Assembly (NCBI GenBank): GCA_002104905.1 | Contig: MCFE01000935.1 | Location: forward strand, 1-25,051 | Length of the DNA stretch: 25,051 nt | Origin: Basidiobolus meristosporus CBS 931.73 | Taxonomy: Eukaryota > Basidiobolomycota > Basidiobolomycetes > Basidiobolales > Basidiobolaceae | Direction of reading: 5' to 3' | Shown: positions 1-25,051 of the stretch, piece after piece | How positions within the stretch are numbered: the first letter of the stretch is position 1 | How the letters are laid out: each line of letters opens with the position of its first letter | Made by a program: the position numbers and the translations under genes | The notes under the pieces: model-generated | What the model saw: the letters and a program-made list of their open reading frames with translations, nothing else | The model's database searches: none | What the model was told of the DNA's origin: nothing

Positions 1-86
1 TTCTGCAAGCAAGGATAGGTAGTTGGCAAAGTCTTGTGTCTGTGATACTGAAGCTTTGGCTGGCAGGATTGTAAATGGCCAAAGGG
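1..86 (-). mobile_element. Left-edge fragment of a minus-strand element, 5'-truncated at TTAGGG
   Basis: One minus-strand frame is open across this stretch and reads as plausible protein (it begins LWPFTILPAKASVSQTQDFA), continuing off the left edge. Its right, upstream end stops at GGGTTAGGGGG (84-94), the same kind of junction as the 5'-truncated retrotransposon copies beside it. I infer it is the next member of the head-to-tail array. The residue pattern could come from the endonuclease-linker part of a LINE ORF2, but it is too short to assign. The window edge prevents any length estimate. Confidence 0.35.
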
Positions 87-94
87 TTAGGGGG
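84..94 (+). repeat. Interstitial telomere motif GGGTTAGGGGG
   Basis: A single telomere-type motif with extra G residues. It separates the truncated 5' end of the left-edge element from the 3' end of the next copy. It is taken as a remnant of a former chromosome terminus. Confidence 0.7.
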
Positions 95-153
95 AAGAGG
101 GGAAGACAGTCACCAACAGGTGAAATCTTTATTTCAGTTGAAACAATGAAGCC
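95..153 (-). mobile_element. Very short 3'-end copy of telomeric retrotransposon family A (copy 1)
   Basis: About 55-60 nt matching only the last bases of family A: the hairpin TCACC-AACA-GGTGA (110-123), then ATCTTTATTTCAGTTGAAAC. It stops at TTAGGGTTAGGG on the right. An extra AAGAGGGG-like stretch lies between the left TTAGGG and the hairpin, unlike other copies. The orientation, 3' end to the left, is that of every family A copy here. It is read as an abortive reverse-transcription product fixed at a former chromosome end. Confidence 0.75.
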
Positions 154-165
154 TTAGGGTTAGGG
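154..165 (+). repeat. Two interstitial TTAGGG repeats
   Basis: Two perfect TTAGGG units, followed by five more G residues (166-170), lie exactly between two truncated family A copies. Confidence 0.85.
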
Positions 166-225
166 GGGGGGAGACAGTCACCAACAGGTGAAATCTTTAT
201 TTCAGTTAAACAAAGAAGCCAGTGC
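166..225 (-). mobile_element. Very short 3'-end copy of telomeric retrotransposon family A (copy 2)
   Basis: About 60 nt of the family A 3' terminus: G-run, GAGACAG, hairpin TCACC-AACA-GGTGA (178-191), ATCTTTATTT, ending in CCAGTGC just before TTAGG at 226. It has the same orientation as its neighbours. It is longer by only a few bases at its 5' end than copy 1. Confidence 0.8.
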
Positions 226-1119
226 TTAGGGGGAGACAGTCACCAACAGGTGAAATCTTTATTTCAGTTGAAACAAAGAAGCCAGTGCTACTGTTGTAGC
301 TTTGATACCAGAGTGTGTAGCTGAGGGGAATTTGTAGGTAAGTTAATATGAAGTGATGATAGTTCTTCAGTGCTCAAGACACTGTTCAGTGGGAAGGGGG
401 GTAGCAAGAGAGGTAAGAATGACTTGTGAACAACATTAATGAGGGGAATATGATAAGGATTGATATTCATCATAAGGGAGTGTGCTGCTGCAGATATTGC
501 TGCCAAAGGTCTGTCAAGTACTTCAGGTAGGCCAGCTTGGGTTTTTCTGACTGCAGAATAAATTCAGCAAACTTCTTGACTTCAGGATCTCCAAGTATAG
601 TTCTCCAGCAGGAGTCAGGTGTTGGGTGGTGTGTTCTCTTCCAGGCCTTAATCAGTGGGTTGTTGCAGTTGTGAAGTCTGAGGTATAATCTGGTTCTAAG
701 GTAGAGAAGTCTGATCTTATAGGGCATAAACCCAAAAGCACCAAGAATAGCATGTCTGTAGGGGCATTCAGGCAAATGAGGCACCAAGGAGGTAATGCAC
801 CATACTGCAAACTTGTCAAGCTTAGTGCAGTCTCTAGAAGTAAGAGAGAGAAGTGGTAAGCCAAATACCAGGACAGGGAAGACAAACTGCTTGAGTAGAA
901 GGAGGCAGCTGGGGGCTGAAGTTGTAGGAGGAGTAACAGCCAGTAGCTTGTGGAGTGCCTGTCTTGCCAGGATAATTCTCTTCTTCAGGTGTGCTCCAGA
1001 GTCTAGTCCAGTAGGAAGGAAAGGAAAGCCAAGATATGTAGCAGAAACCTGAGCAGGTAGAGTGGAGTTCTCCAAGTTGATGGGAGAGCCCAAAGGTACT
1101 GTCTTTGCAATGGAAAGCT
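226..1119 (-). mobile_element. 5'-truncated copy of RT retrotransposon family A (copy 3)
   Basis: About 890 bp nearly identical to 22793-23689 of the distal element, with a handful of substitutions and one A lost from a short A-run near 473. It begins with TTAGGGGG at 226, then the GAGACAG/hairpin terminus (hairpin 240-253), and holds the 3' third of the RT gene. The match to the distal copy ends at 1119, where TTAGGG (1119-1124) takes over and unit X begins. The 5' truncation followed directly by telomere sequence matches LINE-type truncation and telomere healing. Confidence 0.9.
288..1118 (-). pseudogene. C-terminal part of family A reverse transcriptase, frameshifted
   Basis: This covers the last part of the RT protein. 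It holds the YLGF thumb motif and the C-terminal region ending in SKLQQ, and lacks every catalytic RT motif because the copy is 5'-truncated. A one-base deletion in the A-run near 473, relative to the distal copy, splits the frame into two pieces (about 470-1093 and 288-506). It therefore cannot encode a working polymerase. The high identity to the distal copy, with only one frame break, suggests a recent insertion or recent homogenisation. Confidence 0.85.
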
Positions 1120-1124
1120 TAGGG
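1119..1124 (+). repeat. TTAGGG at the retrotransposon/unit X junction
   Basis: A single TTAGGG joins the truncated family A copy to unit X. The other X copy is also entered through TTAGGG (21636-21641), so the left border of X appears to be a telomere-type junction in both places. Confidence 0.8.
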
Positions 1125-1160
1125 TATAGGAGTTGTGGTAAGGGCTACAAAGGGTAAGAA

Positions 1161-2249: not shown

Positions 2250-2265
2250 CTAATCTGCATTGCAT

Positions 2266-2846
2266 AGGTAACTCCAGAGTCAACCAACAAATTAGTTTGG
2301 TGATTATGCCTCTTTGACAGCTAAATCAAATGATTGGGTGTTATAAGAGTTGAAAAAAAACAAGTGTGCAGTGCTAAACTGCTTCAGAAAATCATAACCA
2401 TGTTCAACATTTATGAATGGAGTGATTTATATATAACAGAGTGGTTGATAAAGTATTTATTATACTTCTGGGTGGCAGAGGGATAGCTAAAATAATAAAT
2501 ATTATATTGTAGATACATCAGATAGTTTGCAGATAGATGAATCAGCAATTGACATTGAAAAATTTACAATTGAATGTGGAGTATTATATTAAGAATAAAG
2601 TTGGTTTAAAGTAGTGGTGATAATAGTTCAGATTAAAACAAATATTTGAAATTGTTGGAGTATCAGTCATAGTTGACTAGAAAATAAAGAAATATCTATA
2701 ATAAGCAGGGTTAGCCAGATTCATATGAGGCAAAGTAGACTTTGACGTTATTCAGTGATTAAAAGCTTAGTAAAGTAGTATAAACAAGGTTCATAGTAAA
2801 ATTCTGAAGATAGAAAACAATCAGCCAAGATAATACATATCAAGAT
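2266..2846. other. Spacer without a recognised gene
   Basis: AT-rich DNA just right of the unit X breakpoint. A short minus-strand open stretch near 2305-2420 reads as plausible protein (contains FLKQFSTAHLFFFNSYN) but ends in a stop, has no homolog I can name and may belong with the exon candidate in X. I see no RNA gene or repeat. Confidence 0.5.
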
Positions 2847-3314
2847 ATGAGCCAAAGAGTACAAGATTGTTATGCAAATCTCCCTACACATAGAGGAGAT
2901 TTGCTCTTTAAGAATAGTATTACATGGAAATCAGCCTCTAGTGGTAAAGCACCTGAAAAGAAATCAAATAGCGCTTGTAGTGATGTAACTACAAATGAAG
3001 AAACAGATACTACTACTGCAAAATTAACCTTTGGAAGTATAACGCACTTACAAGAGGTCCAGAGAAGAGGGGCAGAGCAATTGGTTCATCTTCAAAGACA
3101 GAGGACAATAGCAATTGAAAAGTTTTGTTCTCATCTACAACTGGATCAAACCATGCCACATTACCAAGTTCTTCAGGTTGCCTACTTAGATTATGAACAG
3201 ATGAAGAACAATGAGGCAGAGGCTGATAAATTAACAGCTGATCAGTTGAATGATTTGATTAAGCAGGCAGAAGAAATGTCTTGCAATTGCAATGATAGTC
3301 CTTCCACAGGTTAG
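2847..3314 (+). CDS. Hypothetical protein, probable first exon
   Basis: An open frame of 155 codons from an ATG at 2847. The composition is polar and charged, with a Ser/Thr-rich middle and a probable helical segment toward the C-terminus (HLQEVQRRGAEQLVHLQRQR and on). It ends at CCACAG|GTTAGTATT, a good splice donor just before the stop, so it may be one exon of a longer gene. The next open frame on this strand starts at 3575, about 260 AT-rich bases later. I do not recognise the protein. In this gene-poor subtelomeric region it may equally be a decayed or mobile-element gene. Confidence 0.4.
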   Translation: MSQRVQDCYANLPTHRGDLLFKNSITWKSASSGKAPEKKSNSACSDVTTNEETDTTTAKLTFGSITHLQEVQRRGAEQLVHLQRQRTIAIEKFCSHLQLDQTMPHYQVLQVAYLDYEQMKNNEAEADKLTADQLNDLIKQAEEMSCNCNDSPSTG

Positions 3315-3574
3315 TATTTAGTGTCAGTTGTCATTACATATAGGTATTTATATATGTTGTTTATTTTAAAATAAAGAGAGTTAGCTCATCCAATCATAAA
3401 CTAATTCTACAATATTGATATAAAATAAATGTTTCACCAAAGCTTTAGTGTAAACCAAAATTAAACTTGTAGTGATAAATAATTAAAGAGTAAAACTCAT
3501 GCTCTATTACATTTATAAAAAATAAGTAGTGGTCAAGCAAAAGGAAGGATGGAAATTACTTGTTTCCATAAAAT

Positions 3575-4313
3575 ATGGATAAAAGATCATCAGAAGCAGA
3601 AAATACTGTTACGGCTGATTTAACTCAATGTAGGAGACAAAGAAGAACCAACAGAAGGCAGAGGCCTGAAGAAAGAGGAGAAGATCAAGCAGACAATTCC
3701 TGGGAAGTAAATGAAGAAGTAGTGAAAGTTACCCCTAAACAGTGTTGGAGTAATCCAGTTGTGGAGGCTTTGGCTATGGTGCAAACAGAGCTTCCTGAAT
3801 ACTCATCCACTTCACACCACAAAATATTGCAAAGTATGTGCCAAAAGATTATTACAATGCAACATACAATAGACAATCTGAAAAAAAAGAATGATGGACT
3901 CCAAATGCAAATCAAATATAATTTCCACCACTCAACACAAGCATTAATAGCAGAAATGTTATTGAGTCTTTTAAGGAGCAGTACTCTGCAGGGGTGATTG
4001 ATGTCAAAACCCTCAGTTGAAGGCGTTTTACTGATACAACTGCACCAGTTACACCATCTACAAGCAGTCAAGCAGAGAGACCATCAACCACCAATGAAGA
4101 TGAAGAACAGAGTGTTACTTGTGGTGTGCATCCAGATGAAGATATTGTAGATAGTATCAGTGAATCACACTCTTCAATTACTTCATGTAAAAGGCCACAA
4201 TTACAGCCCCACCTACAGAAATACCAGTTTCAGGTACATCAATGCCACCATTGCTGCCACCACTACCACTACCACCGCCATCAACAATATCTTGAAGAAG
4301 TCAGATAAATAAA
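3575..4313 (+). pseudogene. Hypothetical coiled-coil protein, frame broken
   Basis: The first 140 codons encode a charged N-terminus with an Arg-rich patch (RRQRRTNRRQRPEE) and a coiled-coil-like stretch (IITMQHTIDNLKKKNDGLQM). Near 3955 the coding signal moves to another frame (NVIESFKEQYSAGVID), meets a TGA at 4018, continues as a Ser/Thr-rich acidic stretch (4021-4195) and then makes more sense in a third frame as a Pro-rich tail (to about 4290). I read this as one gene with frameshifts and a nonsense codon, though disordered sequence makes the exact breaks uncertain. A Pro-rich or His-rich reading of the tail cannot be settled by eye. No family is recognised. Confidence 0.4.
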
Positions 4314-4421
4314 ATCAATGATTCCTTTGTGTATTATGCAGAGTTTAATTGATATATTAATAAAGTATGCTTAGTGCATTATCTACTTGACTAATATTTA
4401 ACTAGCCAGTTGTAGACTATA

Positions 4422-5452
4422 ATGGATAAACTTGAGGCAAGCCACAAAGATGGTTACCCTGTTCATCATGACAACAATAGATATGATGACCGGAGAAAAT
4501 GATTACACACCGTATCAACAATGTCTTGGTTTATATCTGGCAGGAGTAATATCCGTTACTAGGCGCAGTTATTCTTTGGTGATGTCACACCTTCACTAAG
4601 AGACATCTTTTTATATGGTGGATATCTTGTAGAGCACTTGAGAGATTTATAATTGGAGGGTCACCATAGTAATAGTGGTAGGAGAAGTACCAGTGCCAGT
4701 AGCCAAAATTTCTCTATAACAGGAATTTTTGGCAAACTTGACTCTGGCATTTTGAGAATTAGAATGACTGATTTTAGAATACTGAAGATGCTAGAACCAG
4801 TACCCTAATGGACAGCAAAATAGTCAACCTATTTTTTCTGCAGGATACTATTACTAGAATGAGAGTCACAGGAAGACTTCTTCTTGGTAATAGTTGCGCA
4901 AGTGATCACAAGAATCTTTATGTATTTGGTGGCTTTGAGGTAGAGAACAAAATTTCCAACCCAACAACTAACAAAAGTGTAGATGGAGAAAATATCAAAG
5001 CAGCAGCAACTATTCATTGTAAAGATAATTTCAATTGTAAATATCCAAGTAAGCTACAAGTTATTTGTTACATGGATGCTGATCAGAATTGGAGAATGTG
5101 TAGTAGTAGTACCCTTCAAACTAAACCATTCATGGGGAACCCCAAAAACATGCCAACCCAACAAGCCTGGGCAATTCTAACATATGCATACAATTGCTTA
5201 TTTCTACTTGGTGGATATGCCATTTCCAACACAAAAATACCTTTATTCCCACCAGAGGATACCCCCTTTTTAAATGAGTTTTATTGCTTGAGGCTATGCA
5301 CTGGGACTTACAAGGAACTCTATATTCACTCCACAATTCAAAAGGAGTTACTAGGGGATGCTACTTTGGTTGTCAATGAATCTGGAAATCTAATTCATTA
5401 CATCAACAAGGAAAACGTTGCTTTTATGTATGACATTGATAATAGAATATGA
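4422..5452 (+). pseudogene. Kelch-repeat-like protein, degenerate
   Basis: Kelch blades are suggested by recurring hydrophobic-GG patterns: FLYGGYL (about 4610), NLYVFGGFE (about 4912-4938) and CLFLLGGYA (about 5194-5220), with NEFYCLRLCTGTYKEL between later strands. The main open frame is 4808-5452. Its first codons are probably intronic, since TTTTTTCTGCAG|GATAC at about 4834-4850 is a good acceptor. Upstream, ATG 4422 opens a related frame interrupted by several stops. Kelch proteins form beta-propellers for protein binding. The scattered stops and loss of most blades point to a pseudogene. A SNF2 remnant follows 84 bp downstream on the same strand. Confidence 0.45.
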
Positions 5453-5536
5453 ATTTATCCACCTGACCCAGCACAACATATTACTACCTAGCAACTTCTG
5501 GGACAAATAATCAATTAGTCAGCTGGAGTACCACTC

Positions 5537-7248
5537 ATGAGTATGGATGGAAGAAACAATAATTTACTTAGACAGAGTGCTGAGATTCTCAAAGTTCCTT
5601 TTAAGAATCATCAAATCTTTGGTGTGCATTGGCTTAAATACACAGAAATACTTCATAATGGAGTGCTGCCTGCAGATTCCATGGGGTTGGGGAAAACTCT
5701 AGAGATATTGAGCTTGATTGTGGAAACACCTATGCAACAACCAAATCTCATTATTGTTCTATTATCATTACTATTGAATTGGCTAGAAGAAATCAAGAGC
5801 AAAGCACAAATATCAATTCATGAGATACATGTGTTCCATGGGAAATATTGAGCCATATGTATGGTTGATATGAAGGCCAAATGGATTGTCCTCACTACCT
5901 ATCATACGCTTTGTATAGAAGCAAAGAACACTGGATCACCTATCTGGAAGCTGGAATTTGGTTGAGTGTAGCTGATGAAGCAGATATACTGAAGTACTAT
6001 TCTGGTGGAAGCACAAACACAATAGCCAAGGTGAATGAAAAGTCCTTGATTCTTATCACTGTGACCCCTTCTCAAAATGATCTTATGGATATATACTTGT
6101 ACTTTATTCTCTTTGGTCTATGGGAAGGCACTCCAGAGAATTTTCAATGACTATTGAGTGAGGAGAAGAATGCTAATAGGCTTGTTGACTGGGTGGTGAA
6201 AAGATTAGGCCATATAGTTTTGAGACAAGTACCAGAGTCTCAACTTTTTGGAGAGAGAGCAGTATAAATGATTGATATACAAGAGCGGATTATTCTGTGT
6301 CAATTTTCCCTGGAAGAACAAAAGAAATATACTGCACTACTAGGAGAACTGCCAAATGACATTGGTAAGATGGGAGCTAATACATATTTGCACCTATTTT
6401 CATGTCACCCATTGATGTATACCTGGAGCAGAGAGAAGAATATTAATTTGCAATGAATGAATACTATTGACAGGGAAGAGGATGATGTAGAAGCTGTTTC
6501 TGCTGGTATTCTTGATGAGATAAGTACATTACTAGGTAGTGGAGAAGAAGAAGAAGAAGAAGCAGTAGCAAGTACATCTAATTCTAACCCCTCTTCATTG
6601 TTGCCCAAAATGACTTCTGAGCAAGTGGAAATAGATCACGCCGTTGATAACAATAATGCCACTCCCAATGAAGGTATACTTATAACAAACACCCAGCAAA
6701 GAGGCAATACTACAGAGGGGTTAGATTTGGAACAAGTCTTTATGGAGGATTTTATTTCTGGTGTTGCTAATAACACAGTTAACAAACATAGTGTAAAGAC
6801 ACAGTAAGTGATTGATATCCTGCAAAAGGAGATACTTGCTAATGGGGAGCACAATTGGGTTGTCATATTTGCCTCTTTTAATCTGATGCTTGATTTAATT
6901 GCATATTATTTGATGAGAAATTCAATCCCTTTCCTTACTATAACTGGATATACTCCAGTACAAGCTCAAAAAAGCAATCTCAAACAATTTGCACCACCAG
7001 TTCCAGAGAATGGAATCCAGGTTTTATTAATGAACCTTAAATGTGATGCATTTGGGTTGAATTTACAGATGGTGTCAGTGGCAATCTTCACTGATAACTG
7101 GCAGAATCTATTTGTTGAAGCCCAAGCAAAAGCTTGTGTATGGAGAATGAATCAGCCAAAGGATGTAGTCAGTTACCAGCTGATAAAGCAGGATTCAATT
7201 GAGTCCCAAGGACTTATTGACAGTCAAACCCAAAAGCTTAACTTATAG
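5537..7248 (+). pseudogene. SNF2-family (Rad5/Rad16-like) helicase, multiple stops
   Basis: The family comprises DNA-dependent ATPases that remodel chromatin or act in DNA repair. The order of motifs is clear: motif I in ADSMGLGKTLE (about 5672-5704), motif Ia/Ib in WIVLTTYHTL (about 5881-5910), a DEAD-type motif II in VADEADILK, motif III as TVTPSQNDLMD (canonical TGTPxQN altered), then the C-terminal lobe with FASFNLMLDLIAYYL, GYTPVQAQ, LKCDAFGLNLQ, and motif VI-like CVWRMNQPKDVVSYQL. In-frame stops lie at 5849, 6148, 6265, 6454 and 6805, with one frameshift near 5960; otherwise one frame persists for more than 1.2 kb. An acidic insert (EEEEEE near 6545) sits between the lobes. Motif III and VI changes also argue against function. 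Confidence 0.85.
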
Positions 7249-8790: not shown

Positions 8791-10842
8791 GATAATTTTC
8801 AAAAAGCAATTGATATTTATGAGACTCTGAGCAGCGAGAGTGATGAAGATAATGATACTCATTGCTTAACAAGGAAGGAAGGAACTGGTCATGATGATAG
8901 TTTCCATACTACTGCCGATTGTGATGAAAGTGACGGTGTTTGCAATAATCAGAGCTCTGTGAAAACTAACAAAGTGGTAGAGGTTGAGATTGTGGTTAAT
9001 AGTGTAGGAACATCATCGGATAATTTCACACCTGGTTCAGATTTACCAGAACAACAAATCTCACCTTCAAGCTCCCCCAGAGAATCAACAAACAAAGTTT
9101 ATCCAACTTGTGAAGAATTTGATGCAGCAATACAAGATTTGTTACTCTCGTCGTCAAGCTCACAAAAGAACAAAGATCTTACTAGAGGAGTATCTATATC
9201 AGAAATCGAAAGTATTGCCAATGAAGTTATGTTTAATGAGGCATCCCGCACAACTTCTTTGGTAGCAGTAGTGACTGGTAACAAAGAAGCCATTGAACAA
9301 GGCGGACTTCTTTGCCATTACGATACTCCTATGAGCGCAGCTGAGTTAAAGTTACTTGTCTCAATGCATCAGGAGTTCCTAGCATTTTGGTTAGAGGTAT
9401 TCTACCAGGAGCCTGGAAGGATGACACGCATTCTACATGGGAATCGAGGCCTTAAAGGGATTTCATCCACTCAGGCAAATGTCTATTGGAATGCAACAAT
9501 CAAACAGTTCTTGCTGTTGTCTATAAGGATCTCTAATGCAAATCTCCAAAATCAAGACAAATGTTGGGCTGTGGTTGCTAAAAAGGAAAATGTAAAGTCA
9601 TATTTACTGGTGAGAAGGTTTAAACATGGTTCAGCCCCGCTTAGCCCATCCACAATGAATAATGTCTTACATCATTTATTGAAAGCGGTGTATTTATATA
9701 ATATCTGCTATAATCCCCAAACAAAAAATGCACCAAATGTGCGCTGCAAAGTTGAGATGTACCTACATGCACTAGGAAGCTTTGCTGGACAAATGAAAAA
9801 TCAAAATATCTTACTTTGTCGACAACAAAAGCAAATTGAGTGTAGAGTGGAAGAAGCAGGGCCAACTGATAGAGAAATAAGCATATTATTCTCAGGGCTT
9901 TTGAGGAATATGCAGACTATCCTAGAGACAGTTTTGCCCTTGGATGAGTTGTCATATGCAGTATTGGAGAACACCGAACTGAACCAGCAGCAACAGAGTA
10001 CTTTGGGGAAATGGAGTTTTGTAACAGCTAAAAGTGGGAGAATGATTACCTACCTGACTGAAACCACTCACAGCAAGGAGTCACCTCATTGTCTGCTTCG
10101 TCAGTTATCAGTAAGGTTCCAACAGTTACTTTATACTGCTATTCAAATTTCAGCACCAAGTAGGAGATGTAAGCCACTGGCTTATATGTTATTACATTCG
10201 TCATATCAGCATTCTGCAAGAGATATCCGGTATTCAGGGGAGCGGAATGTAATGTATGATCCCAAGAATGAACAGTTTATTTTTAATCTCAACAAAGATA
10301 AGCGTCCAGGCGGTACTTTATTGTCGATGCCAGTAGAGTTGACCAAGTACATCATCTACTGGATTTCTTTGCTTCGCCCAACATGGGTACTGAATCAAGG
10401 CCAAGGTCACCCATATTTCTTTACTCGGTTATGTGGGAAGGGGAGTCTTGATCCGCAACGTACTGGCACTCTATTCCTAGCTGCAATTTGGCAGGTGTTT
10501 TCTGATTCAAACAGATCATTTGATCAGAGAGAATTTTGCCGCTGGTGTTCTGGTTATGGAATATCATATGGCTTAGTTGATGAATATGCTGCTGCTATGA
10601 ATCATCATCCATCCACGGCCAGACAGATCTACGCCCCTGAAACCCAGGAATCATTATCTGCTACTGCTATTAACTATTACCAGTGCAATGTGCTACGTAG
10701 AAGACTTGGTGGGGCTGAGGTTAATGATGACGATGATAATGATGATGACAATGATAACAATGATGGTACTTATTTGAAGTGTGGTCGTTTGCAGAAGCAG
10801 CGTCGAATAGTGTATACAACCTCTGAGGATGATGAACAATGA
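8791..10842 (+). CDS. Tyrosine-recombinase-like protein (Crypton / telomere-linked type)
   Basis: The frame is open from 8791 to TGA 10840 and is the longest intact one in the window. There is no in-frame ATG before 9229, so the start probably lies in an upstream exon. The N-terminus is acidic and Ser-rich; a helical central domain follows; the C-terminal third reads like a phage-integrase-type fold. Candidate catalytic residues: Arg in SRRCKPLA (10159-10182), Lys in NKDKRPGG (about 10300), Arg in QREFCRW (10528 or 10540), His in MNHHPSTA (10603/10606) and Tyr in RQIYAP (Tyr codon 10630). The box II His-x-x-Arg pattern is not canonical. The DEYAA...TARQIYAP layout resembles C-terminal domains of fungal Crypton and RecQ/telomere-linked proteins. 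The tail is Asp/Asn-rich (codons about 10726-10765), then basic. It could be a domesticated or mobile recombinase. Family placement is by eye only. Confidence 0.6.
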   Translation, partial: DNFQKAIDIYETLSSESDEDNDTHCLTRKEGTGHDDSFHTTADCDESDGVCNNQSSVKTNKVVEVEIVVNSVGTSSDNFTPGSDLPEQQISPSSSPRESTNKVYPTCEEFDAAIQDLLLSSSSSQKNKDLTRGVSISEIESIANEVMFNEASRTTSLVAVVTGNKEAIEQGGLLCHYDTPMSAAELKLLVSMHQEFLAFWLEVFYQEPGRMTRILHGNRGLKGISSTQANVYWNATIKQFLLLSIRISNANLQNQDKCWAVVAKKENVKSYLLVRRFKHGSAPLSPSTMNNVLHHLLKAVYLYNICYNPQTKNAPNVRCKVEMYLHALGSFAGQMKNQNILLCRQQKQIECRVEEAGPTDREISILFSGLLRNMQTILETVLPLDELSYAVLENTELNQQQQSTLGKWSFVTAKSGRMITYLTETTHSKESPHCLLRQLSVRFQQLLYTAIQISAPSRRCKPLAYMLLHSSYQHSARDIRYSGERNVMYDPKNEQFIFNLNKDKRPGGTLLSMPVELTKYIIYWISLLRPTWVLNQGQGHPYFFTRLCGKGSLDPQRTGTLFLAAIWQVFSDSNRSFDQREFCRWCSGYGISYGLVDEYAAAMNHHPSTARQIYAPETQESLSATAINYYQCNVLRRRLGGAEVNDDDDNDDDNDNNDGTYLKCGRLQKQRRIVYTTSEDDEQ

Positions 10843-15173: not shown

Positions 15174-16152
15174 TTGAAAGTTGGTCTAACGTTGTTGAGG
15201 TACATGGTGCGGGATTTGTTTGCTTTTATTGCTAAGCGTGTTGCCAAGAAAATAAGTTGTGTAGCCCTTTGATTTTCTTGGCTATTTATGCTTGTACTAA
15301 CTAGCCCCATATTCCTTCCGTGTTGGTTGAACACCAGATATACAAAGCCAGTCTTGTGCAATCAATCTTGGCTCCAACAACGTGGATCAAATCATCATGC
15401 CAAGATGTATTATGACTATCCAGATTGAAAGTAATCACAATGTATGTAACTGGGTATTGGGCTTATGGAGTAGTGGCCTGGAAACCATTGCTTTAGCTGA
15501 ATGTTCCATGAGTCAGATAGCAATTGATAGAGTACAGTTAGAGTTATTGGTATTTAGCATTCTGTGTATCATTTTGCCCATAGTTTTGTTATTGATCATA
15601 TTATATATAAATACAAGAAAAATAGCCATGATCTTGTTTGCAAGCCATACATGAATCAACACCTGGAACACAATATTTGAATCTACACAATAACCAGTGA
15701 TACATTAAGTATGCTGCTATATTTGCACTGTTGCTTAACTTGCCATAGCTCCCAACATTTCACAACTGAAGATATTGGTGGTGTTGAAGCATGTAGAGAT
15801 ACAAAATAAGGAAGACAACTATGCTCCAAATATGTCACTACATCACATGCAGCTGTTTGTGGCCACAGAACCCATTCACATAAATGAGACAAAACACAGT
15901 AAGCACAGCTTTGGACCATACCGTCTCTCAAACAATGGAGCACAATAGAGTAATATCCTGTCACTTGGGAGAATGTTTTGTACGGAGGGAGTCATGTTTG
16001 TTGACAAAATAAGCATGGCGGCAAAATGGTTGACAAATAAGGAGAGTACTAGAGTGGGTCTGAAGCGTGGAGATAGTCACATGTCAGTAAGTGAAGTGCC
16101 ATACCTCCACAATTCAGTGACACAAATATTAACTTGACGCTTGGATTTTCAG
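15174..16152. other. Spacer between divergent transporter remnants
   Basis: About 980 bp between the ABCA start and the first surviving permease exon. The open frames at 15382-15654 (+) and 15683-15964 (-) match nothing I know and lack coding character; the first has one hydrophobic stretch. The permease's N-terminal half should lie here but is not visible. The end (16120-16152) has a splice acceptor, GGATTTTCAG. Confidence 0.55.
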
Positions 16153-16768
16153 AGGCATACCAACATTAGTGCTTGCTTTCGTATCATACTTCTATCTTCC
16201 AGACTTCCCAGAGACCGCATCATTCCTCATGGAAGATGAACGTCAATTGCTGATGGCACGGCTCAAGCATGATGCAGGTGCTGCATCAGCGACTGAATTC
16301 AAAGAATTCAAAGATGGCTTTATCGACTGGAAGATTTACTTGCATATGGTTGTCTACATATGCGGATCAACTCCATTGTATAGCTTGAGCTTATTCTTGC
16401 CAAGTATCGTAAGCGGGATGGGATTCACCAGCCTTACAGCCCAGCTCATGTCTTCTCCTCCTTGTGCCATTGCCTGTGCCTTCACTATTCTCGTATCCCT
16501 CCATGCTGATCAGAAGAAGGAGCGTGGGTTCCATATTGCACTTTGGATGTTTATCGGGATGATAGGTTACCTGTTGCTCATTGTACTTAGACATCATGGA
16601 TCAACAGCACTATATATTTTGGCAATTATTACGACCACCGGAGTATTTGCAAATATTCCTAGTATGCTGTTGTGGTTCACCAACAATATTGGTGGCCATA
16701 CCAAGAGGGCAGTAGCATCTGCTCTCATCATCTTCTTCGGTAACATTGGCGGAGCGTTAGGAGGCCAG

Positions 16769-16830
16769 GTAAATTATATTTAGCCAATTCAATCCTTGGA
16801 ATCCCGAGCTCACAGTCCTGTTGTTGAAAG
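16769..16830 (+). other. Intron of the permease remnant
   Basis: A 62-nt intron, donor CAG|GTAAAT and acceptor GAAAG|ATCTAC. Splicing joins GGALGGQ to IYRANDG, exactly as in intact family members. Confidence 0.8.
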
Positions 16831-18128: not shown

Positions 18129-18436
18129 GAGAAAGAGTCACTGTTGTATTGAAATCTTTATTCAGCTAAGCAGTTACATAAAGCTACTAAAGCTAATAAT
18201 TAAAGAAGCCAACCAATAGTTGCAACTCTCTTAGGTAAATAATAATAATAAAACTTAGAATCTTGGGTGAAATTGCACTAAGCTAAATGAAGCACTTTTG
18301 GCAAGAAGAGAAAGTTGAGGGCTTTTGGGGAAATTACAAACTGTAAATGGTGCTTGTCTATATAATGAATATTGCAGCAAAAGCCTGGAATCATGTTGTC
18401 ATGGAAACAGGTATAGACTTTGAGATAACTCTGGTC
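18129..18436 (-). mobile_element. Retrotransposon family D fragment (relative of family B)
   Basis: The left end (GAGTCACTG...TGAAATCTTTATT...AAGAAGCC) is a decayed version of the common 3' terminus. On the minus strand, about 18278-18400 encodes IPGFCCNIHYIDKHHLQFVI and SPKALNFLF, matching the family B protein end (HLQFVLPPKPLNFIF). A stop comes earlier than in B (TAG at 18278-18280). There is no TTAGGG at its left side, so later rearrangement or decay is likely. It lies between two solo LTRs. Confidence 0.6.
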
Positions 18437-18784
18437 TGTTGTAAAAGTTTATAATTCCACCTAAGTGTTTACCAAAGCTAGCCACTTGGATCATTCCCTT
18501 CTAATCCTAGAGAACACTAGCCAAATTACTTGTTGGGATCTACTCAGAATATTTTCACCAATTTAACAGGTAACCAGAACATGAGAAATCTCAAAGTTGT
18601 CCAAACAGTCCCAAACTTTGCACACATGTTCTTGGGACCTTCCTACACCTATTCTATGTGCCTTTATGCCAAGACCATGTAAAAGTATAAATACTACTTT
18701 TACATTCAATAAATCATTAAGTGAAAGCCACATAATCTACTTGTTCTCCCAATCACAGTCAAAATGTTTGAGACTCTTACAGCA
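18437..18784 (+). mobile_element. Solo LTR, plus orientation
   Basis: 348 bp from TGTTGTAAAAG to TCTTACAGCA, that is TG...CA with short inverted ends (TGTTGTAA / TTACAGCA). Inside are a TATA-box-like TATAAATA and, about 20 bp later, AATAAA, in the order expected for U3-R-U5. It is about 90% like the inverted LTR at 18876-19224. The flanks do not give a convincing 5-bp duplication. No primer-binding site or polyprotein follows. Confidence 0.75.
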
Positions 18785-18870
18785 GGTTATGAGCCCCAAG
18801 CTGTCACTCTCAGAAATGTCTACTGCTGCTAGTACTGGAATTTTTCCCTCTGCTGGAAAGTTGAATGGAT

Positions 18871-18875
18871 CAACC
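18871..18875. repeat. Target site duplication, left copy (CAACC)
   Basis: CAACC immediately left of the inverted solo LTR is repeated at 19225-19229. Confidence 0.8.
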
Positions 18876-19224
18876 TGTTGTAAGAGTCTTGGAGATATTG
18901 GAAGTGATTGGGAGAACAAGTAGATTATGTGGTTTTCACTTAATGATTTATTGAATGTAAAAGTAGTATTTATACTTTTACCTGGTCTTGGCATTACAAA
19001 CACATAGAATAGGTTAAGGAAGGTCCCAAGAACATGTGTGCAAAGTTTGGGGCTGTTTGGACAACTTTGAGAATTTTCATGTTCTGGGTACCTGGTATTT
19101 TGGTGAAAATATTCTAAGTAAATCCCGACAAGGAATTTGGTCAGTATTTTCTAGGATTTGAAGGTAATGATCTAAGTGACTAAGTTAGGTGAATATTTAG
19201 GTGGAAATACAAATTTTTACAACA
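18876..19224 (-). mobile_element. Solo LTR, minus orientation, with 5-bp target duplication
   Basis: 349 bp. On the minus strand it runs TGTTGTAAAA...TCTTACAACA with perfect 8-bp inverted ends. It carries the TATAAATA and AATAAA signals in LTR order and is flanked by CAACC on both sides. It forms a large inverted repeat with the LTR at 18437-18784 (spacer about 90 bp). A clean 5-bp duplication around a single LTR means insertion of a full element followed by LTR-LTR recombination. Confidence 0.88.
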
Positions 19225-19229: not shown

Positions 19230-19286
19230 TACCCAGTGCAAAAGGTAAAGATGAAGATGTGGCTACAAGAAAGAGGCCTTTGGGAT

Positions 19287-19358
19287 ATTAGGGGAGGGAA
19301 AGTCACCAAGTTGATGAAATCTTTATTTGAGTTAACAACTAATCTAAGTACAAATAAA
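19287..19358 (-). mobile_element. Short 3'-end copy of retrotransposon family B
   Basis: About 68 nt, starting in ATATTAGGGGAGGG and repeating the first 68 nt of the next copy with a few changes. The hairpin is TCACC-AAGTT-GATGA (19303-19317); in RNA sense this gives TCATC/GGTGA, so the changed pair is a U-G wobble and the stem survives. It is a very short 5'-truncated insertion, like the two small family A copies. Confidence 0.75.
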
Positions 19359-19628
19359 GGGGAGGGAAAGTCACCAAGTTGGTGAAATCTTTATTTGAGT
19401 TAAGAACTAATCTAAGTACAAATAAAAAGCCAATTAAGAGGTCTAGAACCTCTCTAATAAGTAATCTAATCTATGTTTTGTTTCATCTCTAATGTGTGTT
19501 TCAATAAAGTAAAGCTCATCAGGGGTAAATATAAAATTCAGGGGTTTTGGGGGAAGTACAAATTGTAGATGTTTCTGATCAATATAATCCAAGACTGGAA
19601 CCCAGCCTGGGATTAGGTGTAGTAGGAA
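19359..19628 (-). mobile_element. Retrotransposon family B, 5'-truncated copy
   Basis: The 3' terminus (GGGGAGGGAAAG, hairpin TCACC-AAGTT-GGTGA at 19371-19385, ATCTTTATTTGAG) is followed by the minus-strand end of an ORF, with stop at 19443-19445. The frame stays open to about 19628, where GGGTTAGGG begins. Its protein end aligns with that of the family A RT (PLNFIFTPDELYFIE against PLNSVLSTEELSSLL), so it is the tail of a related but diverged RT element. Confidence 0.75.
19443..19628 (-). pseudogene. C-terminal end of family B reverse transcriptase
   Basis: About 60 residues, containing IPGWVPVLDYIDQKHLQFVL and ending LDYLLERF. It resembles the last 50 residues of the family A protein and the family D fragment at 18278-18400. 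All RT motifs are lost through 5' truncation. Confidence 0.6.
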
Positions 19629-20212: not shown

Positions 20213-20522
20213 TACTACTTATGTTCTATGCGCACATGTATCCCGCGGGAATTGTAAAACTTAGCCACGTGGTACAAAAGTGCTTTTATTTTTCATCATG
20301 ATAGTTTTACATGAGTTCCTAACGCACTTCGAAAGTACACAGTAGCCATACCCCAACAGGTTTTAAGGATGTCCACTAGCTACGTCTACTTGTGTCTAGC
20401 GGGAGCCATCAATCATCAGCCGCGAAATACTGAAATGCTTTTATTTTTCATCATGCCAGATTTGTATGAATCCCTAACGCACTTTCATAGTGCGCGGTAA
20501 CCATACCCCAACAGGTTTTAAG
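20213..20522. repeat. Two tandem units of about 155 bp
   Basis: TGCTTTTATTTTTCATCATG at 20281 recurs at 20436, and ATACCCCAACAGGTTTTAAGG at 20348 recurs at 20503, so the period is 155. The first half of each unit is more diverged. CTAACGCACTT with a small inverted repeat (CGCACT-TTCAT-AGTGCG in the second unit) lies inside. The array ends exactly where TTAGGGGGG of family C begins, as if it was once terminal. Confidence 0.75.
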
Positions 20523-20619
20523 GGTTAGGGGGGATGATCATCACCAAAGGGTGAAATCTTTATTTAAATAATAAATAAAGAAGCCAAGTTTGAATATGAA
20601 TATCTGAGATGCAGGAAGC

Positions 20620-21420
20620 CTACAAGATAAACTTGGACTTTGCTGTATCCCAAATATCCTCAATATCAAAGTCTAGAGGAGAGTGTAGCAAGACTGCTTG
20701 TTCACTGTAGTATTTCTTGAGGAAGTTTGTGACTTGAAGGGAAGGAGAGTTTTTCAATAAGCTGGTAAATCTTTTGAGGAGTTCTTTTTCCAGAGAGAAT
20801 GGCACAAAGAGTGGAATGTCCAAATGATGTTTGAATATATGCTCTGAGAGCTCCCAATCCAGCAAATTTTTGACTTCTTCTGTAAAATCTTCAACAATAT
20901 CTTTGTCAAGAATAACTTCCAAGAGATCCCTGGCAATGTACTGAATGTTAATAATCTTAGGCATATGAATACCTAGGTCCTTGAGGTAGTTTCTTTGTTC
21001 TGATATTGGGAGATATCCTGCATTTCTGAAATAGCAAACAGCCCAGTTGGCAGTAGGAGGAGTATCAGGGCTGACAGGGAATCTTCTTCTGGCTTTAGAG
21101 TGCACTGGCTTAGGAGACTGTCTTGATGGAAGGGCAGCTGGTTTTGGATGAGCTTGAAGTGCTTGAGAGTAGGTCTGAGTACAAGTAGTAGAAGTTCCTG
21201 GTTGCTGAGAATTTTCAGATTGACTGGATGAAGAGCTAATTGAGGGGTTGCAAGGTAAGGAAGAAGCTGAAAGAGCAGTGGAGAGGGCTGGGTGAAGTTC
21301 AGAAAGAGTTTTGAAAAGAATTTGGATCTGAGATTTCAACATTGAGTTTTCAGCTTCAAGAAGAGAAACTCTTTGTTCAAGGTAAGAAGTCTGTAAAGAG
21401 TGAAAGTTGGGTAAAGACAT
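20620..21420 (-). CDS. ORF1/Gag-like protein of family C
   Basis: 266 residues, intact, from ATG 21420 to TAG 20620. Residues about 8-45 have heptad-like hydrophobics (YLEQRVSLLEAENSMLKSQI), a likely coiled coil for self-association. Residues 50-115 are Ser/Gln/Pro-rich, with a basic patch KARRRFP near 110. The C-terminal half is a folded alpha/beta-looking domain (NYLKDLGIHMPKIINIQYIA, LLEVILDKD) whose pattern recalls the N-terminal/ORF1 proteins of fungal LINE elements. By analogy with such proteins it may bind element RNA and guide it to telomeres, but that is inference. There is no zinc knuckle. The surrounding 3' terminus is shared with the RT family, so RT is probably supplied in trans. 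Confidence 0.65.
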   Translation of the reverse strand: MSLPNFHSLQTSYLEQRVSLLEAENSMLKSQIQILFKTLSELHPALSTALSASSLPCNPSISSSSSQSENSQQPGTSTTCTQTYSQALQAHPKPAALPSRQSPKPVHSKARRRFPVSPDTPPTANWAVCYFRNAGYLPISEQRNYLKDLGIHMPKIINIQYIARDLLEVILDKDIVEDFTEEVKNLLDWELSEHIFKHHLDIPLFVPFSLEKELLKRFTSLLKNSPSLQVTNFLKKYYSEQAVLLHSPLDFDIEDIWDTAKSKFIL

Positions 21421-21467
21421 GGAAGTAATAAATCAGAAGAATGGAGTAGTTGGGGTGGGAGGGTGGC

Positions 21468-21595
21468 AAAATAGGTAAGAAGAAAAGAGAGGAAAGATCT
21501 GAAATTGAAAATCTCAGAATTTATAGATGGATGGACAAGGGTAGAGGATTGATTAATCCAGGGCCAGGGAAAAATAGATAAGAAGAAAAGAGAGG
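21468..21595 (-). promoter_or_regulatory. 5' leader of family C with 25-nt direct repeat
   Basis: AAAATAGRTAAGAAGAAAAGAGAGG occurs at 21468-21492 and 21571-21595, 103 bp apart, in the region expected to hold an internal promoter and 5' UTR. On the element's sense strand it is pyrimidine-rich. The outer copy ends at the element's 5' border. Promoter function is inferred from position only. Confidence 0.4.
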
Positions 21596-21596
21596 G

Positions 21597-21635
21597 TTAG
21601 GGGGGAGGAAAGTCAACAAGTGGTGAAATCTTTAT
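21597..21635 (-). mobile_element. Minimal 3'-end fragment of a telomeric element
   Basis: Only about 35-40 nt: TTAGGGGGG, then AGGAAAGTCAACAAGTGG, TGAAATCTTTATT, then TTAGGG again (21636). The hairpin is imperfect here (TCACC against TTGA, one mismatch). It is the shortest of the truncated insertions and joins family C to unit X. Confidence 0.7.
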
Positions 21636-21641
21636 TTAGGG
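21636..21641 (+). repeat. TTAGGG entering unit X copy 2
   Basis: A single repeat at the left border of unit X, equivalent to 1119-1124. Confidence 0.75.
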
Positions 21642-22787
21642 TAGGGTATAGGAGTTGTGGTAAGGGCTACAAAGGGTAAGAGAGCAGGGGGTCTGGGGGA
21701 CGCAGTCACCCAGATAATAAAATAAGCAGGGGGTATGGGGGATGCAATCCCCCATACTGCTCTTTCTTTATTAAGATTCCTTTCAATTTCCTCTGTTTTC
21801 TTTACTTTAATTTTATCCTAACCCTTCCTAACCCTAAACACTTTTTTTTCATTTTTCATTTTTTATTCAAATTACCATAAATATTGAAACTTATTCTTTG
21901 CTCACTGAGTATTCTTACTATCTCACCGTTGATTGTTATCCTTTTAGCCCTTTATCAATATTGAAATAAAAAAATTGCAAATCAATTATCCTATAAATTT
22001 TAGACCAATTATATAGATTTGAAGAATTATTAACTTTATATCATTGCTAAAGTCTAGCTCTTTGCTAATGCATATTTATTTATGTTATAACTTACTTAAG
22101 ACATGTATCATCATATAGCAAGTAAAATATTTATTAATAAAGTTATATATATCATGATAAAATTTATTACAAAAATAAGGAACTCTCTGATATTCATAGC
22201 CTAATTAACTTTTATACACTCTTCAATATTATTTTTTTTAAATATTTAGAATACAAGCAATTTTTAAACCTCTTAATATATCTACTAATAAAAGTATTTC
22301 ATATCTGAAAACTTGAAAATAAATATATTCACAAGAACAATGTTTATATATTGAAAATATCATAAAAAGTTATAATAAATCGTACCAATAGTTATTCTGC
22401 TCAATAGTGGTCATTATTAGTTTTGGGCAACATATATCACGCATGACTAATGTTACTCATGGATTGATGAATCAAGTTAAATCCCAGTAGCCCAATTTAA
22501 AAATATTTCCTATGATTTTATTGTGAAAAATGACCGCATAGTATAATGTAATTTTGATATTTTAGATATCCAGAGTATGATAATATAAGTTGGTAGAATT
22601 ACATACCTGTAACACATTTAACCTGCGCATCATACACAGCCTGGAGAATATCATTTGATTTTTTATAGATATACCAGCTACACAAAACACATGTTGCAGA
22701 GTAACAACTGTGTGGCATTCAAGTGTACAAGAAATCTTGCACCATGAACAAACAGAAAATTGAGAGCACATCTAATCTGCATTGCAT
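21642..22787. repeat. Subtelomeric unit X, copy 2, broken and capped
   Basis: Near-identical to 1125-2265. The hairpin pair lies at 21683-21762, with the perfect 11-bp stem at 21733-21743/21747-21757. It ends at ATTGCAT (22787), where copy 1 continues AGGTAACTCC into unique DNA but this copy turns into TTAGGG (22788-22793). The few differences cluster in AT-rich parts and in the right third. Confidence 0.85.
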
Positions 22788-22801
22788 TTAGGGCTAGGGG
22801 G
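22788..22801 (+). repeat. Telomere motif between broken unit X and family A
   Basis: TTAGGGCTAGGGGGG: two telomere-type units, one with a T to C change, followed by the family A 3' end. It marks the base where a broken end appears to have been healed. Confidence 0.8.
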
Positions 22802-24829
22802 GAGACAGTCACCAACAGGTGAAATCTTTATTTCAGTTGAAACAAAGAAGCCAGCGCTACTGTTGTAGCTTTGATACAAGAGTGTGTAGCTGAGGGGAAT
22901 TAGTAGGTAAGTTAATAAGAAGTGATGATAGTTCTTCAGTGCTCAACACACTGTTCAGTGGGAAGGGGGGTAGCAAGAGAGGTAAGAATGACTTGTGAAC
23001 AACATTAATGAGGGGAATGTGATAAGGATTGATATTCATCATAAAGGGAGTGTGCTGCTGCAGATATTGCTGCCAAAGGTCTGTCAAGTACTTCAGGTAG
23101 GCCAGCTTGGGTTTTTCTGACTGCAGAATAAATTCAGCAAACTTCTTGACTTCAGGATCTCCAAGTATGGTTCTCCAGCAGGAGCCAGGTGTTGTGTGGT
23201 GTGTTCTCTTCCAGGCCTTAATCAGTGGGTTGTTGCAGTTGTGAAGTCTGAGGTATAATCTGGTTCTTAGGTAGAGAAGTCTGATCTTATAGGGCATAAA
23301 CCCAAAAGCACCAAGAATAGCATGTCTGTAGGGGCATTCAGGCAAATGAGGCACCAAGGAGGTAATGCACCATACTGCAAACTTGTCAAGCTTAGTGCAG
23401 TCTCTAGAAGTAAGAGAGAGAAGTGGTAAGCCAAATTCCAGGACAGGGAAGACAAACTGCTTGAGTAGAAGGAGGCAGCTGGGAGCTGAAGTTGTAGGAG
23501 GAGTAACAGCCAGTAGCTTGTGGAGTGCCTGTCTTGCTAGGATAATTCTCTTCTTCAGGTGTGCTCCAGAGTCTAGTCCAGTAGGAAGGAAAGGAAAGCC
23601 AAGATATGTAGCAGAAACCTGAGCAGGTAGAGTGGAGTTCTCCAAGTTGATGGGAGTGCCCAAAGGTACTGTCTTTGCAATGGAAAGCTGGAGATTATTC
23701 TTCTGCAGATACTGGTGGATGGTCTGGGAGTCTTGTTGCACATTGGAGGAGGATATTCTGATGTCATCAGCAAAGAGAGTAACCAGGCAGTCAGCTGAGA
23801 GTCTTGGGAAATCATTCAGGAAGATGGCAAACAGTATAGGACCAAGCACAGAGCCTTGAACCACTCCATTAGGAACTGAGAACACAGCTGATTGCTCACT
23901 TGGGTGCAGAATTCTTGCTTGTGGATCCAGAAACAGAGATCTGACAAGGAGGGTGAGAGAGGTACTGGAGAAGCATTGCAACTTGGACCAAAGCAGATTT
24001 CTGTCAACAGAATCAAAGGCCTTAGTAATATCAAACAGAACAGAGGGATACTTGCACTGGAGAGAGTGATCTTGGCTAAGTATGACTGCATATTCCAAGG
24101 AGAGGCCAGGAACAAAGCCAAACTGTGCAGGATGAAACTTGAGGGAGTCAGAGTAGAGCTCCTGAGCAAGCAGAAGCTCAAACACCTTTCTGCAGGTGGG
24201 CAGCAGAGATATTGGTCTGTAGGAGCTAGGATCCAGGTGCTTTCCTTTACCCTTGTACAGTGGCAGAACATTTGCAAAGGACCATTCCTCAGGAGTAGAA
24301 AGCTGGGCTGAGCATTGCTGAAACAGTGGAAGCAGAAGTGCAGACATGGCCTTGGTACTAGTCTTCAGAAGCTCATAGGAGATTGTGTCCACACCTGGAG
24401 CAGTAGAGTTGGGAAGCCTCTTGAGCACATTATGGATTCTCCCTTGATCAAGTGCAAGTGGGATGGGCAGAGTCTTGAAGTCAGGATGAAAGCCAGGAGT
24501 TGGGTACTGCTTTGTAGAGAAGAAGATGTTAGCCAGCTGTTCTGTTGAAGGTAACTTCCTGGAAGAGGGCCTCATTGCCCTGTAGAGTCTTGATACTGTT
24601 CTTGTTATAGAGTTGGAAGATTGCAGAGGCAAGGAACTCATAATATGATCCCAGAGCTGAGTATGCAGAGTGTGGTGAATTGCCTTGGAGTGGTGTATTG
24701 CTGTCAGGAGGAGTTTCTCTGTTTTTGGGTTAGGGAAACTCAGGTAGCTTTGTTGCAGGGCTGAAACAATGGATTCCCATTTTCTTGAGGTAACAGCAGT
24801 AGTCTTGCATGGCAGTGAGAGGGAGGCAG
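22794..24829 (-). mobile_element. Telomeric non-LTR retrotransposon family A, distal copy
   Basis: About 2.0 kb with its 3' end toward the centromere and its truncated 5' end joined directly to the terminal telomere repeats. The 3' terminus is a C-run in RNA sense, hairpin TCACC-AACA-GGTGA (22809-22822) and AATAAAGAT. It carries an open RT gene lacking its upstream part. No poly(A) tract lies between element and telomere repeat on either side. Confidence 0.9.
22857..24829 (-). CDS. Reverse transcriptase of family A, 5'-truncated
   Basis: The frame is open from TAG at 22857 up to the telomere and even through the repeats, where it would read Thr-Leu. The first internal ATG is 24641, giving 594 residues; about 60 further residues lie upstream (from ASLSLPCKTTAV). 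Counting from that Met, RT motifs are YKGKG (129-133), YRPISL (141-146), motif A FDITKAFD (203-210), motif B QGSVLGPIL (262-270), motif C FADD (290-293) and thumb YLGF (346-349), all with the catalytic Asp residues present. This is a LINE-type RT that copies element RNA at its target. An endonuclease domain, if any, would lie in the missing N-terminus. The C-terminal 250 residues have no RNase H or zinc-finger signature that I can see. Intact catalytic motifs suggest recent origin, but this copy lacks its start and promoter. Confidence 0.9.
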
Positions 24830-25051
24830 TTAGGGTTAGGGTTAGGGTTAGGGTTAGGGTTAGGGTTAGGGTTAGGGTTAGGGTTAGGGTTAGGGTTAGG
24901 GTTAGGGTTAGGGTTAGGGTTAGGGTTAGGGTTAGGGTTAGGGTTAGGGTTAGGGTTAGGGTTAGGGTTAGGGTTAGGGTTAGGGTTAGGGTTAGGGTTA
25001 GGGTTAGGGTTAGGGTTAGGGTTAGGGTTAGGGTTAGGGTTAGGGTTAGGG
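24830..25051 (+). repeat. Terminal telomere, 37 perfect TTAGGG repeats
   Basis: 222 nt, exactly 37 TTAGGG units with no variant, running to the end of the window. The G-rich strand points right, so this is the right end of the chromosome. The repeats start directly at the truncated 5' end of the family A copy (GGAGGCAG|TTAGGG). The real array may be longer, because assemblies often stop within telomeres. Confidence 0.97.

Follow-up and report, generated by a model that had tools for sequence, protein, structure and literature searches.

Non-LTR retrotransposons joined to telomere repeats at chromosome ends of Basidiobolus meristosporus, and their probable priming by worn telomeres

The stretch of DNA analysed here (the window; 25,051 b) makes up contig C1241 (MCFE01000935.1) of Basidiobolus meristosporus CBS 931.73 in its entirety. 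Its right end is a telomere, and it contains truncated copies of non-long terminal repeat (non-LTR) retrotransposons (Table 1). The copies recognised in the window lie on the minus strand with their 3′ ends leftward, that is, toward the interior. They belong to a set of at least five families with a common 3′ hairpin: two long interspersed nuclear elements (LINEs; families A and E), two families with only a first open reading frame (ORF1; families B and D), and one 520-nt family resembling a short interspersed nuclear element (SINE; family C). We regard outward, end-primed synthesis on eroded telomeres by a chromosome-end non-LTR system as the best explanation of their arrangement, and as a probable one.

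Table 1 Features of the window and their positions.
Feature	Position	Strand
Telomere-like seed and AAGA, ahead of the first 3′ fragment	84–97	+
Family A remnant, about the last 51 nt and junction, 3′ end only	98–153	−
TTAGGGTTAGGG seed	154–165	+
Family A remnant, about the last 57 nt	166–222	−
Family A copy, 5′-truncated, C-terminal part of ORF2 (open frame 470–1144)	228–1119	−
Subtelomeric block, copy 1, running on rightward in the direction of the Kelch/SNF2 region	1120–2265	+
3′ fragment of 68 nt, assigned to family E	19290–19357	−
Second 3′ fragment assigned to family E; only AAAGGGG as joint to the first; right limit approximate	19358–19628	−
AAGGGTTAGGG seed at the 3′ end of the family B copy	20519–20530	+
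Family B copy, ORF1-only (gag-only), ~1.06 kb	20529–21595	−
Family B ORF1, 270 aa, coiled coil, without reverse transcriptase; stop ~90 nt from element 3′ end	20620–21432	−
Family C (SINE-like) piece, 3′ hairpin region only, assigned by eye	21601–21637	−
Subtelomeric block, copy 2, end cut at TTTAGGGCTAGGG	21642–22787	+
TTAGGGCTAGGG seed	22788–22799	+
Family A copy, 5′-truncated within ORF2, directly abutting the terminal telomere	22797–24828	−
Part of family A ORF2, including the reverse transcriptase domain (RVT_1, E = 1.4e-25)	22857–24827	−
Terminal telomere, 37 exact TTAGGG repeats	24829–25051	+

The seed preceding a copy in the window is CTTAGGG at 228, AAGGGTTAGGG at 20529, GGGTTAGGG at 21601, and TTTAGGGCTAGGG at 22797. 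The copy at 166 follows TTAGGGTTAGGG, and the four bases AAGA intervene between GGGTTAGGGGG and the copy at 98. All six TTAGGG junctions quoted in an earlier, sequence-only reading of the window are thus present, with this AAGA as a qualification at the first. That reading took the minus-strand copies for retrotransposons, most of them starting on a telomere motif at one end and stopping on another. The retrotransposon junctions stand, but the copy at 21601 is a 36–38-nt SINE-like piece (recognised by eye) of a different family, and the copy at 228–1119, which does start on CTTAGGG, has its other end on the telomere-like subtelomeric start TAGGGTATAGG and not on a plain repeat. Two short copies had also been omitted, one at 19290–19357 and one from 19358 that is joined by AGGGG only. 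The 228–1119 copy is 98% identical to the copy at 22790, and the two subtelomeric blocks are 99.2% identical over 1146 nt. With at most one mismatch, TTAGGGTTAGGG has 43 matches in the window, where shuffling predicts 0.16, and 36 of them fall within the terminal array.

The genome searched comprised 89,006,234 bases in 1311 contigs. Junctions were read in 60 contig segments (258,310 b including the window), which were a non-random choice: matches to the reverse transcriptase (RT) or to the 3′ end of family A were taken in the order listed, and selected contig ends were added. The sampling followed element matches and was not a hunt for interior copies. In these segments, 125 element 3′ ends were located by a pattern around the common hairpin. 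In RNA sense, the common terminus consists of AATAAA, a AATAAAGATTTCACC-loop-GGTGA hairpin (stem TCACC/GGTGA), and a C-run. Because the search key includes AAATCTTTATT and a portion of the hairpin, the presence of the hairpin and of AATAAA at every end is partly built in.

All but one of the 3′ ends (124/125) are joined to at least AGGG in the telomere register, and 101/125 to at least TTAGGG. These seeds have a median length of 8 nt; 116 of the 124 have at most 12 nt in perfect register, and the stubs mostly correspond to 0.7–2 telomere repeats. Some internal seeds are as long as 22–39 nt, 39 nt being the maximum. As a control, G-runs of at least four were compared within the same segments, and the TTAGGG register was found for 108/135 at element 3′ ends versus 28/711 elsewhere. 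The G-run at family A junctions varies in length from 4 to 12, as expected from slippage between GGG and the C-run. No joint among the 125 junction rows carries poly(A), the flank of a single row containing five A, and none is present at the junctions of the copies recognised in the window. AATAAA lies ~25–30 nt ahead of the junction.

The orientation of the elements is nearly uniform. Among the 27 contig right ends examined, 18 have a terminal telomere array, and the 3′ end faces inward for all 55 element ends on these 18 contigs. On contigs of at least 50 kb, 58 of 64 ends point toward the right end and lie at most 18.3 kb from it, and three point toward the left end and lie at most 3 kb from it. 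In the whole genome, the family A 3′ end (≤2 mismatches) was found 761 times forward and 76 times reverse, with 0 for the control; six TTAGGG in a row were found 6568 times forward and 68 times reverse, counted as overlapping matches. The forward excess of both indicates that most contigs are oriented with the telomere on the right. Whole-genome protein searches agree with this orientation: among the best matches listed, plus-strand copies amount to 8/130 for family E and 11/143 for ORF1, all in the first 10 kb of contigs. For family A they amount to 4/67, of which two lie close to left ends and the others on C726 and on C217, a small contig. In segment L073 (C726:56500–66499), elements of opposite orientation stand back to back at ~61.0–61.3 kb; inversion, fusion, and misassembly are all possible.

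The 5′ boundaries of family A, B, and C copies were determined by aligning each to one long observed copy; 85/111 were readable and 26/111 run off the examined sequence. Seventy of the 85 readable 5′ ends stop on TTAGGG, and 13 of those bear the terminal array. Family A breakpoints fall between 50 and 4559 nt, with 2/51 copies of full length, and 18/30 copies of family C are full-length. Tiny copies of 50–57 nt are present, and one copy retains only ~14 nt, after which a new start follows. Beyond the window, the sample thus agrees with the sequence-only reading in that 3′ ends face inward near chromosome ends, that the junctions lack poly(A), that 5′ truncation is variable and most 5′ ends stop on a telomere motif, and that telomere repeats stand directly on truncated ends; full-length copies, whose existence it had raised as a question, are present. 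Telomerase-like sequence was also found: on C880, two Telomerase_RBD matches exceed the cut-off side by side, and one of them contains an in-frame TAG. At several truncated 5′ ends (on C368, C427, C32, and C45; segments L005/L076, L016, L049–L050, and L065), TTCTAGTGCTTTATTGGGAAA recurs after short TTAGGG tracts and is possibly another subtelomeric or element family.

The sequence on either side of the copies was compared for resumption of the proximal flank. Among 83 copies with at least 60 nt past the 5′ end, the proximal flank is known elsewhere with its continuation unbroken for 50, and the other 33/83 are uninformative. In none of the 50 testable copies does the flank truly resume within 70 nt past the element, the sole listed match being the body of the next copy. 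A looser test (anywhere within 400 nt) flagged 15/64; none resumes at the element's end in the rows shown, and on general inspection most seem to represent either the next copy's body or a 3′ end belonging to another element. Classical internal insertion is accordingly unsupported for the tested copies. The sequence past the joint is gone, as expected for end additions, and on sequence grounds this loss is compatible with end priming and with insertion into a terminal array alike.

The length of the telomere tract below the elements is more discriminating. The terminal arrays measure 125–238 nt at 17 of the 18 ends and 49 nt at one, these being lower bounds where the contig stops. By a tolerant count, the tract below the most distal element is at most 18 nt at 13/17 ends, with a maximum of 47 nt. 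Uniform nicking of a 206-nt array would give such stubs with P ~3e-11 if the ends are treated as independent, which they are not fully (at least C1180 and C823 have one junction in common). The short stubs are the best evidence for attachment to worn ends, with the proviso that repeats might be lost later.

Families A and E have the same layout: ORF1, an in-frame UGA-CUA, and an ORF2 with an apurinic/apyrimidinic endonuclease (APE)-like domain followed by RT. The family A reference copy (4559 nt, C713) encodes an ORF1 of 523 aa and an ORF2 of 922 aa with one in-frame TGA between them. Its ORF1 has a zinc-ribbon-like motif (by eye and from weak Pfam matches), a coiled coil, and a C-terminal region resembling family B. 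The boundary, located by a motif just downstream, reads GCC TGA CTA in 23/23 copies, and 16/23 have the full 922-aa ORF2 frame, whose first Met is codon 142, past much of the endonuclease-like domain. One family E copy was read and has TGA CTA and the frame as in A. In a test in human cells, UGA-CUA by itself was read through at 1.5% (PMC4132726). ORF2 is probably made by gag-pol readthrough of this stop codon. By title, no case of stop-codon readthrough in non-LTR elements appeared among the matches listed in the open-licence literature, which is weak evidence of absence. The ratio of nonsynonymous to synonymous differences (pN/pS) of 0.18 for family A ORF2 (17 copies, 136 pairs) indicates purifying selection. 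Identity between E and A is 44% in the C-terminal part of ORF2, 51% at its start, and 60% at the end of ORF1, and synonymous sites are saturated in the compared part. Database protein P0005 from the same strain matches the assembly in pieces only, at no more than 98%, like a spliced gene model across tandem copies.

The RVT_1 match of family A ORF2 (E = 2.6e-25) places the element among the non-LTR LINEs. The nearest solved structure to the RT is LINE-1 ORF2p (E = 8e-13), with R2 much weaker (5e-4). A FastTree phylogeny of 49 rows, computed without named reference elements, placed A, E, and five database relatives (46–80% identity to P0001 or A) in one group with a support of 100; the branch is long, and long branches prompt a warning from the program. 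A has P0002 as its partner and E has P0007, and both lineages therefore exist in other sequenced material. The N-terminal domain matches PF14529 with E = 3.5e-4, below the Pfam cut-off, and keeps GD(L/F)N, VDW, and SDH (GD(L/F)N and SDH in the relatives that reach them). APE-type LINEs carry an N-terminal APE endonuclease with a characteristic set of catalytic residues. The position of the catalytic Glu is occupied by Asp in A, E, P0001, and P0003 and by Glu in nine outgroup homologues, and the middle region is shortened. This alignment contains nine of the ten fetched outgroups (P0043 omitted), and P0004 and P0007 stop short of the Glu/Asp site. With Asp at this position, A and E depart from standard APE-type LINEs, and the domain is called APE-like without being a proven nuclease. 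The common change suggests altered, perhaps lost, nicking. The CCHC and PD...D/E motifs are the patterns used in searching for a restriction-like endonuclease. A loose search for them after the RT found none in A, P0001, P0003, and P0007.

The remaining families encode no RT. Families B and D have ORF1 only; B was found in the window and on C244, and the one copy of D examined (C14) has its 3′ end ~100 nt from the stop. Genome matches to B ORF1 number at least 143, subfamilies included, with subfamilies at 96–100% and 88–93% identity and a further set at ~47% that was taken as D. The ratio of nonsynonymous to synonymous substitution rates (dN/dS), calculated from one pair in each family, points to purifying selection on ORF1, with 0.18 in B and 0.25 in D. 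A homologue of B ORF1 exists in B. ranarum (P0121, 269 aa, 62%). The AlphaFold model of the window ORF1 with two homologues was poor (predicted local distance difference test score of 41). As an ORF1 without pol that is under selection and located at chromosome ends, the family B copy in the window corresponds to HeT-A-like gag-only elements. Internal promoters of RNA polymerase III have A and B boxes of known consensus. In the 520-nt family C, the B box is exact (GGTTCRANTCC, at 55) and the A box loose (at 12), with no strict A box found; the longest frame is 49 codons. In 3000 shuffles, the B box alone occurred in 5 and the A and B pair in 0. With A and B boxes, no ORF, and a 3′ hairpin in common with a LINE, it agrees with a tRNA-type SINE. 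Descent from a tRNA was not confirmed, as ARAGORN and Rfam gave no match in segment L077, which has a full copy. The predicted hairpins have energies of −3.8 to −9.6 kcal/mol, calculated on hand-written representatives with no shuffle control, and the 5-bp stem is nearly invariant, leaving little covariation to count. From its presence in all families, we infer that the shared hairpin would serve as a handle for ORF2 in trans.

Short seeds and capped copies suggest direct copying onto worn-down ends, which could proceed as follows. Element RNA would be bound through its 3′ hairpin by the ORF2 protein of family A or E and would meet a chromosome end worn to a telomere stub. The G-strand, pairing through its terminal GGG with the RNA's C-run, could then offer its 3′ OH as the primer for outward cDNA synthesis. 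Synthesis would halt early, or the end would later break back, and telomerase would then add repeats; repeated erosion and addition would build the arrays. Families B and D would bring their own ORF1 and borrow ORF2, and family C would bring no protein.

A different origin, target-primed insertion into telomeric duplex, would have the APE-like domain nick TTAGGG so that the element lands inside the array and internal repeats are lost later. The motifs kept in that domain and the TTAGGG that flanks most copies on both sides speak for it, and there is a precedent: SART1 and TRAS1 nick and insert within the repeat array (PMC7265360). According to that paper, however, the SART1 junction has poly(A) and at least three repeats are needed, in which these copies differ. 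Together with Asp in place of the catalytic Glu, the shortened domain, and stubs of at most 18 nt at most ends against arrays of ~206 nt, this makes such insertion unlikely in our estimate. Template jumping, by which serial additions would be made in one event as the RT hops between RNAs, would attribute the seeds to CCCUAA at the RNA 3′ end and not to telomerase. The seeds are indeed short and variable, and the distance of AATAAA from the junction would allow RNA ends to lie in or just past the C-run and the proximal stub. At 13 ends, however, a truncated copy bears a terminal array, which shows that repeats do get added there; a few internal seeds reach 22–39 nt, and we consider template jumping distinctly improbable.

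Break-induced replication or end recombination between subtelomeres could also have spread the arrays, with retrotransposition being old or rare and the 5′ truncations representing terminal breaks healed by telomerase. The duplicated 1146-nt block within one arm shows the kind of similarity expected, a C-then-A pair with an identical junction recurs on several contigs, and MoTeR arrays are reported to grow partly in this way (PMC7367193). Such exchange would account for spread and not for the common 3′ start on TTAGGG. The many 5′ breakpoints, the differing proximal flanks at otherwise alike 3′ ends, the copies of 50–57 nt and the ~14-nt copy with its new start, and ORFs under purifying selection also disagree with it, and as the main source of the arrays it seems very unlikely.

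Several observations weigh against end priming as well. Assembly homopolymer errors could account for part of the G-run variation, and 23/124 seeds are only AGGG or TAGGG, within reach of chance matching. The short seeds could have formed after insertion through repeat loss. Fifteen of the 85 readable 5′ ends are off TTAGGG; some of these join the next element via a G-run or TAGGG, several join other subtelomeric repeats, and one is an internal deletion. Copies in the opposite orientation, named beforehand as evidence contrary to the sequence-only reading, do occur: they make up 3 of the 64 ends found on the larger contigs (at least 50 kb), and these three share a single inverted block on C726 at 8.5–10.3 kb from the right end. 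Finally, an endonuclease-like domain with GD(L/F)N and SDH is retained, which a purely end-primed element would not need; TART likewise keeps its endonuclease (PMC5537684). End priming is still the reading we prefer. A fuller version of it is tentative, and we would not expect it to hold in every part: a LINE lineage without ordinary nicking (Asp for Glu, shortened endonuclease) may extend worn telomeres by a GGG–C-run pairing like that of the telomerase template, and may support, on one 3′ hairpin, a pair of UGA-CUA-readthrough LINEs, gag-only partners, and a telomere-directed SINE, as a back-up to telomerase.

Other sequences in the window were as follows. At 2814–7248, adjoining the left copy of the subtelomeric block, a plus-strand run of ORFs matches SNF2-rel_dom (E = 6.6e-12), Helicase_C (E = 1.2e-7), and, weakly, Kelch, with the SNF2 pieces broken into several frames. 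It is neighboured by a 683-aa open frame without a Pfam match at 8791–10842. Pieces of an ATP-binding cassette transporter (−) and of a major facilitator superfamily transporter (+) lie at 12604–16783 in frames that are broken or split by introns. A decayed relative of the shared 3′ end is located at 18129–18162; over 34 nt it matches the family E fragments at ~71%, and it has no TTAGGG seed. A large inverted repeat occupies 18437–19224 (arms of 224 and 123 nt, 87–91% complementary), and sequence resembling it comes after truncated elements on C14 and C62. At 20263–20523, a 106-nt repeat recurs at 155-nt spacing; its second copy is cut at TTTTAAGG, followed by GTTAGGG into the family B element. 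This junction looks like a healed break reused as a start point.

The closest parallels in layout are fungal. The MoTeRs of Magnaporthe oryzae point their 5′ ends outward to the chromosome end, are accompanied by interstitial telomere tracts, and show 5′ truncations to which telomere has been added, and MoTeR2 has its ends in common with MoTeR1 (PMC7367193); FoTeRs of Fusarium oxysporum are located at chromosome ends and flanked on either side by telomeric motifs, and the MoTeR1/FoTeR clade, with Cnl1, SLACS, CRE, and CZAR, has a restriction-enzyme-like endonuclease (PMC12857005). The Basidiobolus elements are likewise fungal chromosome-end non-LTR elements of uniform orientation, with the 5′ end telomere-ward and short interstitial tracts, C726 being the exception. 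They differ in the N-terminal APE-like domain of ORF2 ahead of the RT, an RT nearest LINE-1 among solved structures with no restriction-like motif after it, a separate ORF1 with the UGA-CUA junction, and the ORF1-only and SINE-like families. Membership of the MoTeR group was rejected on endonuclease type, by the loose motif search and domain order and without comparison to a MoTeR sequence. MoTeR, one of the parallels drawn in the sequence-only reading, is thus a good organisational parallel and probably not a relative. Endonuclease-deficient Penelope-like elements, another of those parallels, are attached to chromosome ends and have an RT close to telomerase (PMC5537684); end attachment is common to both, but the Basidiobolus element is a LINE that retains an encoded APE-like domain.

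In Drosophila, HeT-A lacks pol and accompanies TART and TAHRE, which have a pol with APE-type endonuclease and RT; the endonuclease is kept though a nick seems unneeded, and the elements have poly(A) ends and lengthen telomeres in telomerase's place (PMC5537684). Attachment to chromosome ends and a pol-less partner beside pol-bearing elements are similar in Basidiobolus, whereas its junctions lack poly(A), its ends have TTAGGG caps, and a telomerase domain is present. With TRAS/SART of the silkworm, a TTAGG genome, it has telomere-associated LINEs of APE or APE-like type in common, and differs in that stubs are short and no poly(A) junction lies inside the array. No telomeric element in Basidiobolus (by titles and abstract openings) and no telomere-directed SINE (by title) appeared among the matches listed in the open-licence literature, each being weak evidence of absence. 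The system represents chromosome-end retrotransposons in an early-diverging fungus, derived from APE-like LINEs whose lineage seems independent of that of MoTeR, and gag-only and SINE-like partners coexist with a telomerase domain in one genome. LINE priming on a natural chromosome end, insertion as a response to eroded telomeres, and production of LINE Pol by stop-codon readthrough could all be tested in this one organism. Judged from its sequence, the system is a combination of a MoTeR-like layout, a HeT-A/TART-like division of labour, the make-up of an APE-like LINE, a SINE-like partner, and a probable readthrough gag-pol.

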